Both the position numbers and the translations under genes were made by a program. The notes beneath the pieces were generated by a model that had not been told where the DNA came from, did no database searches, and saw only the letters and a list, made by a program, of their open reading frames with translations. From contig CAIJKY010000011.1 in assembly GCA_903821365.1 (NCBI GenBank), forward strand, positions 62,001 to 126,000: a stretch of 64,000 bases of DNA. Reading direction: 5' to 3'. Below, one piece after another: positions 52,211 to 56,144 of this stretch (within the stretch, counting starts at the first letter, position 1; each line of letters opens with the position of its first letter). This DNA comes from an uncultured bacterium (GTDB taxonomy: Bacteria > Patescibacteriota > Saccharimonadia > Saccharimonadales > Saccharimonadaceae).

Positions 52211-52966
52211 GTGAATCGACAAAGAGGACCAGCGCTCGCACTGCTCACAGTGTTACTGCTGGCAATCGGCCTGCTTGCGGTGCCATACGTGTCCTTCACC
52301 CAACCCCGGCAATCAACATCGCCAGGGTTGCAGCAAGACGGCAACACTACCGACCGTGCAGTACGCCAGCCCGACGACTGCCTGTCGCCTGGGCCAGCAG
52401 TCTACTGGGCAGACTTTCCGGTGGCAGCAGCGTCCGCTCAGGAAGACCAGAACCACAAGGTCTCGGCCTTCGCACAGGGGCCACCGCTCTTGAGCAAAGC
52501 CGAGCTGCAGCTGTCGAACGAAAAGCGTACCCAGCTTCTCATCGACCGGCTGAAGCGGCGTTTGTGCGGTGTTGCGGCACTTGGGGGCGACCCCAAGTTG
52601 TTCACGGCACTGCAGGCGCAAGCCGATCCTCGGCCCGCCACCATCGACCCAAACCGATCGCTGTCGCCGACCGAACACCGCGCACAACTGGCAGAGTTCA
52701 CGCGCCACGCGCTCTGGAACATGGTGCGGATCGTCGATGACTTCCCGCCACGCACCGACATGCTCACTACACGAATGGTGGGACATGGTGCGGACATCCG
52801 GATCGAAGCAGTGACACCAACTCAAGGGCCGCAAGCCGTCGCCTACCTCCCGGTGGAAGTGGGACCTGACTACCGGCGGACGCGCATCATCGTGCTCCAG
52901 CTCGCCTGTGGTGGACAGACACTGAGCATGGCAAGCAGTTTCTACCCCGGAATGCGAAGAAGCTAG
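52211..52966 (+). CDS. Orphan secreted or membrane-anchored protein
   Basis: A 251-residue protein with an N-terminal signal or anchor helix (ALALLTVLLLAIGLLAVPYVSF) and an exported domain with few landmarks: four Cys (DDCLSPG, RRLCGV, QLACGG and one near the start are visible as possible pairs), RHALWNMVRIVDDFPPR and RRTRIIVLQLACGGQTL. No family is recognised. GTG 52211 follows GGGAGAAGG. It lies 29 bases after 51600-52181 and ends in a 17-bp hairpin, so the two genes form one cassette. Confidence 0.62.
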   Translation: MNRQRGPALALLTVLLLAIGLLAVPYVSFTQPRQSTSPGLQQDGNTTDRAVRQPDDCLSPGPAVYWADFPVAAASAQEDQNHKVSAFAQGPPLLSKAELQLSNEKRTQLLIDRLKRRLCGVAALGGDPKLFTALQAQADPRPATIDPNRSLSPTEHRAQLAEFTRHALWNMVRIVDDFPPRTDMLTTRMVGHGADIRIEAVTPTQGPQAVAYLPVEVGPDYRRTRIIVLQLACGGQTLSMASSFYPGMRRS

Positions 52967-53104: not shown

Positions 53105-53485
53105 ATCAAAAAAGACCATCTTCGCGATGATCTTTCGTGCAACTATATAATCAACAGCCGCTCTATGCTGCGGCGCTTTCATTACCCCTAAAAACCAAAA
53201 GGCGCTAGGTAAGGGTGGGCATCACCTAGCGCCATTTGGCCCTTCAACCCACCCGTATAGGGCAGAGATACTGGCTGGGCCAGCCTCAAGCGTGACCCAC
53301 CTCACAAAACATTGAGCGGTCCGCCGGTTAAAGGGATTAGATTACACACCACGTGTACAAAGTACTATCTGAACAGTGGAGGGTCAAAAACTGTCCAGAC
53401 CGTGAGCGTGCAACCTAACAGTAAACTGTTAATAGGGGGTATAAGGTGCATGTAGCTACTACGCGAGGGATGCGTAGCAACTTAC
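53105..53485 (-). ncRNA. Large structured RNA, family not recognised
   Basis: This stretch has no gene but has RNA signals on the minus strand. TTGACA (53522-53517) and TACTAT (53499-53494) are 17 bases apart. The end is an intrinsic terminator: AAAGATCATC pairs with GATGGTCTTT and TTT follows (53107-53135). In between are several helices: GCTACGC/GCGTAG, TCTGGACAGT/ACTGTTCAGA, TACAC/GTGTA, and GGCGCTAGGT/ACCTAGCGCC, whose loop CCCACCC matches an upstream GGGTGGG as a pseudoknot. Wobble pairs occur only on the minus strand. I could not match tmRNA, RNase P, SRP or 6S RNA. Confidence 0.65.
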
Positions 53486-53540
53486 CGTGGATTATAGTAG
53501 CACGCAGAAACATAAATGTCAATACTTATTTACATAATAC

Positions 53541-54437
53541 ATGCATAAAAGCAATACCATTATCCCAGAGGAGCATGCTTTCTTACAGATGAGCATAAGC
53601 ATTGACCCGATAGTAAAAGAGTTGCATTATAGTGGAACTTTACCAGAATCACGAAAACCAAGCGTCGCTATCGTCGGAGCACGGCGGCCGAGCGGCTATG
53701 GAACAGAGGTGGCATACAGTTTATCGTATGAGCTTGCAGCTGCAGGCGTTGTCATTATCAGCGGCCTGGCTTTGGGGATCGATGGCATTGCCCACCAAGC
53801 GGCACTTGATGCTCATGGCACAACACTTGCTATATTGGGCGGCGGGCTTGATGCTATCTATCCAAGCCGCCACCGGCACTTAGCGGCACGGATTGTCGCA
53901 GCAAACGGAGCACTTCTTAGCGAATACCCTGATGGCGCACCGGCACTCAATTACCATTTCCTGGAGCGCAATCGGATTATAAGCGGGCTAGCCGATGTCG
54001 TGGTCGTCGTTGAAGCCGCGCAGCGAAGCGGCACCTTATCGACCGCCAGCTGGGGATTGCAACAAGGCAAAACAGTCATGGCAGTACCTGGCAACATTAC
54101 CAGCCCGCTCTCCGAAGGGTGTAATCAATTGCTTAGGAGTGGAGCGAGCGTCGTTACCGAAACGAGTGATGTGCTGCAGGCGCTTGGACTTAATGATACA
54201 GCCAAGCAAACAAGCCTGCTTAACAGCGACAACCCAGCCGAATCGGCAATTATAGCACTGCTGCTCGAAGGCCTGCGCGACGGCGATATACTGCAACAAA
54301 AAAGCAGTCTGTCGACTGCGATATTTCAACAAGCGATGACGATGCTTGAGCTAACGGGTACTATACGAGCCTTAGGCGCGAATCAATGGTCATTGGCACG
54401 AACGAACAAAGGCTCACAGATGATGAGGGGAGGGTAA
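53541..54437 (+). CDS. dprA: DNA processing protein DprA
   Basis: A 298-residue Rossmann-fold protein that loads RecA onto incoming single-stranded DNA during natural transformation. It shows VAIVGARRPSGYG, GLALGIDGIAHQAAL, TLAILGGGLDAIYPSRH, SEYPDGAPALNYHFLERNRIISGLADVVVVVEAAQRSGTLSTA and a C-terminal winged-helix-like end. The start is uncertain: ATG 53541 has no ribosome-binding site and ATG 53589 is also in frame. It is divergent from the structured RNA. Confidence 0.95.
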   Translation: MHKSNTIIPEEHAFLQMSISIDPIVKELHYSGTLPESRKPSVAIVGARRPSGYGTEVAYSLSYELAAAGVVIISGLALGIDGIAHQAALDAHGTTLAILGGGLDAIYPSRHRHLAARIVAANGALLSEYPDGAPALNYHFLERNRIISGLADVVVVVEAAQRSGTLSTASWGLQQGKTVMAVPGNITSPLSEGCNQLLRSGASVVTETSDVLQALGLNDTAKQTSLLNSDNPAESAIIALLLEGLRDGDILQQKSSLSTAIFQQAMTMLELTGTIRALGANQWSLARTNKGSQMMRGG

Positions 54438-55106: not shown

Positions 55107-56144
55107 ATGCTCACTCTCCCTCGCAAAAGGAATCGTAGCGTCGCTATCGGTACGTTAACGGCCGTATGTCTGTTTAGTCTTGGCGTATATACGGTAACAA
55201 CCCTTGCCGAACCAGTGCCGACAAACAAAGTTAACCAAACCGTCGGATCAACGCCTTCGAATAGCGCTGCTAGCGAGACGCCCGTTTACACTCCGGCACG
55301 ACCAACATGGCCGCTAAAAGGGCAGGCACTGTTCAACGACGGAAAATTGATTGCACAGAAGCGGCCAGCGGCCATAGCCAACCAGCCGACCGCTCACTGG
55401 ATCGGCGACTGGAATCCAGCACCGGCCCAGGAGGTGCATGATCTCGTAACGGCCGCTGCAGCTGTGCGTGCCTTGCCAACAATTGTCCTCTATAACATCC
55501 CGGAGCGCGACTGTGGCCAATACTCTGCCGGTGGCGCAAAAGACTCAGCCAGTTATCGCGCTTGGATACAAGCAGTTGCCGATGGGCTTGCGCAGCAGCC
55601 AGCAATTATCGTGCTGGAGCCCGACGCTTTGCCTCATATGAGCTGCCTGACGAAAACGCAACAAAAAGTGCGCCTCGCTGATATACGTTATGCCGTAAAA
55701 TTGCTGGCAGGCACAACGCGCGCCAGTATCTATCTTGATGCAGGCAATAGCAATTGGAAATCAGCTGACGAGACAGTCGCCATGCTCAAACAAGCATCAA
55801 TCAGTGATGCGGCGGGTTTTTCGCTCAATGTGGCGGGCTTTGCTGCACTGCCTGCAGTGACGGCGTATGGCAACGCGATTGCAGCAAAGCTTGGTGGCGT
55901 CCATTATATTGTTGATACCAGCCGCAATGGGCGCGGTGCAGCTAGCGACAATGCTTGGTGCAACCCGGGCGGCCGAGGGCTCGGCGAGAAACCAACAACC
56001 ACACCCGCGAATAGCACCTATATTGACGCCTACTTATGGATTAAAACACCTGGTGAATCTGATGGCACCTGCAACGGTGGGCCTACGGCCGGGCAGTGGT
56101 TTGAATCCTATGCCCAAAGCTTGATTACAAACGCGGCTCAGTAG
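55107..56144 (+). CDS. Secreted glycoside hydrolase family 6 (cellulase)
   Basis: A 345-residue enzyme with a signal or anchor helix (VAIGTLTAVCLFSLGVYTVTTLA), a Thr/Ser/Pro linker and a GH6 catalytic domain. LYNIPERDCGQYSAGG contains the catalytic acid Asp, IVLEPDALP the second Asp, and YLDAGNSNW, VDTSRNGRG, CNPGGRGLG and WIKTPGESDG complete the family. GH6 enzymes hydrolyse beta-1,4-glucan (cellulose). No carbohydrate-binding module is attached. It stands between dprA and rarA, and its end overlaps rarA by 20 bases. Confidence 0.93.
   Translation: MLTLPRKRNRSVAIGTLTAVCLFSLGVYTVTTLAEPVPTNKVNQTVGSTPSNSAASETPVYTPARPTWPLKGQALFNDGKLIAQKRPAAIANQPTAHWIGDWNPAPAQEVHDLVTAAAAVRALPTIVLYNIPERDCGQYSAGGAKDSASYRAWIQAVADGLAQQPAIIVLEPDALPHMSCLTKTQQKVRLADIRYAVKLLAGTTRASIYLDAGNSNWKSADETVAMLKQASISDAAGFSLNVAGFAALPAVTAYGNAIAAKLGGVHYIVDTSRNGRGAASDNAWCNPGGRGLGEKPTTTPANSTYIDAYLWIKTPGESDGTCNGGPTAGQWFESYAQSLITNAAQ

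Follow-up and report, generated by a model that had tools for sequence, protein, structure and literature searches.

The locus and its putative RNA gene

The stretch of DNA analysed here (the window, 64,000 nucleotides) carries a conserved RNA gene of about 295 nt on its minus strand (53192-53487), delimited by the models R1 and R2 and by alignments; its ends are predicted, not mapped. The promoter (53494-53522, minus strand) comprises a -35 box TTGACA (53522-53517), a 17-bp spacer and a TG-extended -10 box TACTAT (53499-53494), and is conserved in relatives. All 57 distinct family promoters recovered by pattern search have the dinucleotide TG directly 5' of the -10 box. From the promoter position, transcription is predicted to start at about 53487 on the minus strand.

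The conserved 3' end coincides with a terminator hairpin (53190-53233, minus strand), located about 295 nt 3' of the promoter. Its covarying stem is formed by GGCGCUAGGU/ACCUAGCGCC (53233-53224 and 53210-53201), its loop is GAUGCCCACCCUU, and a T-rich tail follows at 53200-53190. Further downstream, a second terminator-like hairpin (about 53134-53114, minus strand) with a run of six T (53113-53108) may serve as a read-through end. This hairpin is not part of the conserved block, displays a weak match to isrD, and the match of a same-genus relative begins after it. An earlier, sequence-only reading of this region had proposed a promoter with 17-bp spacing, an intrinsic terminator and an RNA of about 380 nt. 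The promoter is confirmed, and a terminator is present, in fact as two terminator-like hairpins, but the end chosen in that reading is the second hairpin; the conserved 3' end lies about 85 nt before it, so the conserved RNA is shorter than proposed.

The fold energy of the plus strand in this region (z = -4.4) does not decide the strand. The RNA is assigned to the minus strand because it carries the promoter and the T-runs of relatives (e.g. GGCGCTTTTTT) and because the G-U wobble pairs are workable on this strand only; strand-specific wobbles were also listed in the sequence-only reading. The plus-strand interpretation of the first alignments was dropped on the same grounds.

The divergent neighbour, outside the RNA gene, is the DNA-uptake gene dprA, next to which nearly all sampled Saccharibacteria (TM7) keep the RNA (53541-54437, plus strand; Pfam PF02481, E 2.4e-67). 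The other flank of the RNA region (53105-53522) is occupied by a plus-strand ORF (52211-52966) without Pfam match. Downstream of dprA, the window further encodes a member of Glycosyl hydrolase family 6 (55107-56144, plus strand; PF01341, E 3.1e-61), a cellulase family, in this small Saccharibacteria genome. Four neighbours of the RNA recur across about 80 named loci, namely dprA (62), topA (59), pth (57) and der (42), the names of the latter three being assigned by reading of sequences. They are arranged as der-pth-RNA-dprA-topA, the RNA being encoded on the opposite strand. Nine loci lack dprA and retain topA and the RNA; the adjacency therefore represents an old arrangement without strict dependence, and a role serving dprA alone is weakened. 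A TTGAC-N4-6-GTCAA inverted repeat spans the -35 box in 27 of the 57 distinct family promoters (e.g. L004, L009, L013), as though placed back-to-back with a dprA promoter; it is absent from the window.

Secondary structure and covariation

Read 5' to 3' on the minus strand, the predicted RNA starts with a hairpin GUAAGUUGCUACGC...GCGUAGUAGCUAC (53452-53485), recognised from the sequence and replaced in relatives by a 5' hairpin of different sequence. It is followed by an unpaired block GCACCUUAUACCCCCUAUU (53431-53449), almost invariant in the family and most of the order, and by P2 (53415-53430), which consists of the hairpin AACAG/CUGUU and the segment GUUAG (53419-53415). The latter may alternatively pair with CUAAU at 53340-53336. 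The long helix P3 (53341-53414) encloses the hairpin P4 and falls within the R2 match (53449-53325); the P4 loop, ACCCUCC (53378-53384), is almost invariant class-wide. Both strands of P5, CCCUUUAACC (53326-53335) and GGUUGAAGGG (53240-53249), display compensatory changes. The G-rich segment GGGUGGG (53248-53254) overlaps the end of P5 and likely pairs, as a pseudoknot, with the CCCACCC loop of the terminator hairpin (53213-53219), which is invariant in the family alignment.

Many compensatory changes are present in the helices P3, P4, P5, P6 and in the terminator stem, in agreement with the multiple helices proposed earlier. Among the 26 pairs of the 3' domain 16 changed on both sides, with 98% of cells paired; this result lies far above slid controls and was equalled by none of 500 shuffles. 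The 5' domain possesses compensatory changes in 14 of 22 pairs, including all 12 pairs of P3, with the P4 signal partly blurred in the alignment by differing loop lengths. Unguided RNAalifold on 15 loci from other orders recovered P3, P4, P5 and the extra hairpin P6 (17/26 pairs compensatory). Several variant RNAs (L010, L011, L017, L019, L025, L026, L030) contain a larger inserted domain within P5 and no GAGGUGGGUCAC element. At order-level loci (e.g. L098, L106) the P3 strands GUUUUAGAGC/GCUCUAAAAC resemble the beginning of a Cas9 CRISPR repeat, a likeness regarded as coincidence since this helix shows free covariation in other families.

The segment GUUAG can pair either with upstream CUAAC, forming P2, or with CUAAC/U after P3, and RNAalifold favours the latter in the family alignment. 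A CCCUU segment in f38 and f42 likewise has a possible partner on either side, as judged by eye. These alternative pairings suggest, without proving it, a conformational switch.

Of 164 distinct RNAs, 120 carry a partner for CCCACCC of the sequence GGUGG or longer immediately ahead of the P5 3' strand, versus 17 expected with shuffled flanks. In a second count, GAGGUGGG was present in the P5 domain of 29 of the 38 RNAs without a GGUGG partner, and the GGUGG partner in 99 of the 108 RNAs without GAGGUGGG. These partner counts are inflated by the kinship of the genomes. The window RNA possesses both G-rich partners. Probably, then, a G-rich strand pairs with the terminator loop as a pseudoknot. 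The GGGTGGG/CCCACCC pseudoknot of the sequence-only reading is possible in the window (53254-53248 with 53219-53213), but since relatives offer two alternative G-rich segments, and the partner is exchanged or weak in part of the RNAs, a single fixed pair common to all RNAs is rejected. Some other orders (f38, f42) have a different terminator loop, so the pairing is not class-wide.

Distribution among Saccharibacteria

Of 61 genomes examined with a plain DNA search, 31 yielded the RNA; all 31 belong to the family of the window. The model R1 (3' domain, training set including the window) matched 140 of 151 family genomes, including all but two of the 105 good ones (103), with one match in each matched genome except for two matches in a genome with 8% contamination. 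By the R1 and R2 counts, 103 of 105 good family genomes carry a single copy. Within the order sample, R1 matched 134 of 198 genomes, spread over most of the families represented. Twenty order-level loci share the same promoter, most of the blocks UACCUUAUACCCC, UUACCCUCCACUU and CUAACCCCUUUAAC, and the terminator loop GUGCCCACCCCC.

The model R2 (5' domain) was built without the window sequence; its matches to members of the family and the order have E values of 1e-5 to 1e-20. Its only match in the genome of the window (1,025,469 bases) is the present locus (E 3.4e-11). Outside the window's order R2 yielded no match at E 1e-3; weak matches (E 0.02 to 0.6) were obtained in f38, from another order, whose loci share the promoter, the divergent dprA, P3, the CACCCUCC loop and P5. 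In other orders of the class, all 15 dprA loci, representing 11 families, carry ACCCTCC next to this gene and downstream of a divergently oriented promoter; the promoter pattern was found automatically in 12 of them. The same architecture with ACCCTCC occurs in none of 11 dprA loci from other classes. R3 misses the family f39 and detects order-level RNAs weakly. Class-wide presence consequently rests mainly on position, promoter, motifs and consensus structure, R2 and R3 being insensitive across orders.

Among the matches listed in a pattern scan of named genomes, the organisms are Saccharibacteria/Saccharimonadia, some labelled only 'bacterium' or 'Patescibacteria'. One further match among those listed is a contig of a 'Chloroflexi' MAG (L153), with the RNA next to a dprA that belongs to the same cluster; it is probably misbinned Saccharibacteria. 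As far as sequence comparison can tell, the RNA gene is a single-copy noncoding gene characteristic of Saccharibacteria (class Saccharimonadia), and a more distant form in other classes of the phylum is not excluded.

Comparison with known RNA families

A scan of the whole window against Rfam at gathering score returned two tRNAs only. With permissive thresholds the locus gave weak matches only, the best (E 0.04) on the second terminator; isrD at that position, MIR474 and other low-scoring candidates are considered chance or terminator-shape matches. Applied to 20 diverged relatives (62.6 kb), permissive thresholds returned nothing at the RNA.

tmRNA (RF00023) and RNase P RNA (RF00010) resemble the new RNA in length and in being present once per genome, but differ in possessing genes of their own on contig 1, both above the Rfam cut-off: tmRNA at C1:41350-41760, with ARAGORN finding none at the RNA locus, and RNase P RNA at C1:37034-37444 (253 bits). 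6S RNA (RF00013) has no match in the window's own genome, the locus or the 20 relatives. SRP RNA (RF00169) is a housekeeping RNA without a found copy here, and like 6S RNA has no match in the own genome; no apical-domain signature was noticed at the new RNA. A motif search of all 1,025,469 bases in six frames detected no Ffh/FtsY SRP GTPase motif (genome about 95% complete), and this genome may lack a signal recognition particle. The locus had been judged to lack the hallmarks of tmRNA, RNase P, SRP and 6S RNA and to encode an RNA that could be new or a highly diverged member of a housekeeping family. The absence of any family match at the locus and in the relatives, and the location of the tmRNA and RNase P RNA genes, are in line with this judgement; conservation, covariation and the near-universal single copy support a new, independent family, with transcription untested.

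A close analogy is offered by raiA/ModT RNA, which is clade-wide, structured, separately transcribed from a consensus promoter, pseudoknotted and unexplained in its biochemical role (PMC11706538, PMC11751092), all features shown or predicted for the new RNA as well. The raiA RNA has a complex fold and unknown biochemistry, and often adjoins the DNA-uptake gene comFC (PMC11706538). It differs from the new RNA in lacking any sequence or model match to it, in its gene neighbours and in its occurrence in other phyla. raiA RNA has two pseudoknots (pk-1, pk-2) around a central junction; one likely pseudoknot was found in the new RNA, located elsewhere, at the terminator loop, which does not decide the comparison. 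RF03072 matched none of 61 genomes, a search in which the control genomes were silent too, and gave no match in the permissive scans of the locus and the 20 relatives.

No description of such a noncoding RNA of Saccharibacteria was found in the open-access literature. The complete genome of Nanosynbacter HMT352 lists only two noncoding RNAs, annotated by the NCBI pipeline (PMC8830319), from which we infer that standard annotation probably misses the new gene.

Possible functions

We are almost certain that the locus belongs to a genuine, separately encoded family of structured RNAs, a statement derived from sequences and not from transcripts. The notion that it is no RNA gene, merely a conserved DNA element or a chance structure, could draw on the lack of expression data, but is scarcely credible given compensatory changes that keep pairs across families, including one-strand G-U pairs, and a promoter and a terminator likewise located on that strand.

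As the best explanation overall, held with no more than even confidence, we regard the RNA as a constitutive, trans-acting RNA of housekeeping type, characteristic of its clade, its function being inferred. It would be made constitutively, be stable and act in trans, as suggested in the absence of expression data by the strong conserved promoter, the terminator, the single copy and the near-universal retention in small genomes. Most likely it would be the central RNA of a ribonucleoprotein particle or of a regulator, and its C-rich loops would contact a fixed protein or RNA partner. Such fixed partners are inferred from the almost invariant ACCCUCC and CCCACCC loops; no partner is identified and no binding data exist. 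The likely pseudoknot and the alternative GUUAG pairing would hold or switch the fold. That this mechanism is correct in outline is a tentative proposition, less likely than not.

Part of the preference for a particle or regulator stems from the lack of support for general pairing with ribosome-binding sites. Exposed C-rich loops are known from regulatory RNAs of Firmicutes. Those of the new RNA, ACCCUCC and GCCCACCC, resemble the anti-Shine-Dalgarno loops of known regulatory RNAs and could cover ribosome-binding sites of mRNAs if the molecule were a base-pairing small RNA. A few starts in the genome indeed have GGAGGGT just before ATG. However, GGAGGGT precedes only 1 and GGAGGG only 3 of 349 starts, which leaves no broad target set, and the conserved structure of about 300 nt is far larger than in those RNAs and exceeds the need of pairing. 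The missing enrichment of complementary sites at the 349 starts leaves a general anti-Shine-Dalgarno action without support, and bears on that alone; a small set of pairing targets is not excluded by the evidence, and base pairing as the main function appears unlikely.

The complex fold, the likely pseudoknot and the almost invariant unpaired bases would suit an RNA that resembles a ribozyme or raiA/ModT RNA and folds an active or binding site of its own, and raiA itself provides a similarly folded precedent. No catalytic motif was recognised, however, and with RF03072 unmatched (subject to the silent controls mentioned above) we consider this possibility rather improbable.

No 6S RNA was found in the genome, so its role is vacant, and universal single-copy retention and a strong promoter would fit a 6S RNA that has diverged strongly and would act by binding and regulating RNA polymerase. 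6S RNA forms one rod with a large central bubble. The consensus of the new RNA is instead a multi-domain fold with almost invariant C-rich loops, and RF00013 does not match; what the two have in common is a single-copy gene of housekeeping type. We consider this identity quite improbable.

Action in cis on the neighbours, through the promoter region shared with the divergent dprA or against the convergent pth, has the old dprA adjacency across the class and the inverted repeat of 27 family promoters in its favour. Against it stand the nine loci that keep the RNA without dprA, the RNA's own terminator and varying 3' neighbour, and the lack of the repeat in the window and about half of the family. 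A cis role cannot be excluded, yet its prospects are poor.

Returning to the housekeeping-type RNA acting in trans, the single copy in nearly every sampled genome, the strong structural conservation and the lack of a match to known families make it a probable basic component of the saccharibacterial cell, as yet unexplained. RNAs that are near-universal, single-copy and structurally constrained are rare, and most of those known belong to core machinery; an RNA that an entire class of genome-reduced epibiotic bacteria has retained, and that Rfam lacks, thus likely has a basic function. Saccharibacteria are naturally competent and genetically tractable, and some are cultivable and transformable (PMC10633639), which makes deletion, tagging and probing feasible. 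It is conceivable, though we advance this with reservation, that the RNA is near-universal, probably essential and unrelated to known RNAs, and represents a new RNA-protein machine, a ribozyme or a stand-in for a missing housekeeping RNA in a lineage for which the present genome revealed neither 6S RNA nor a signal recognition particle.
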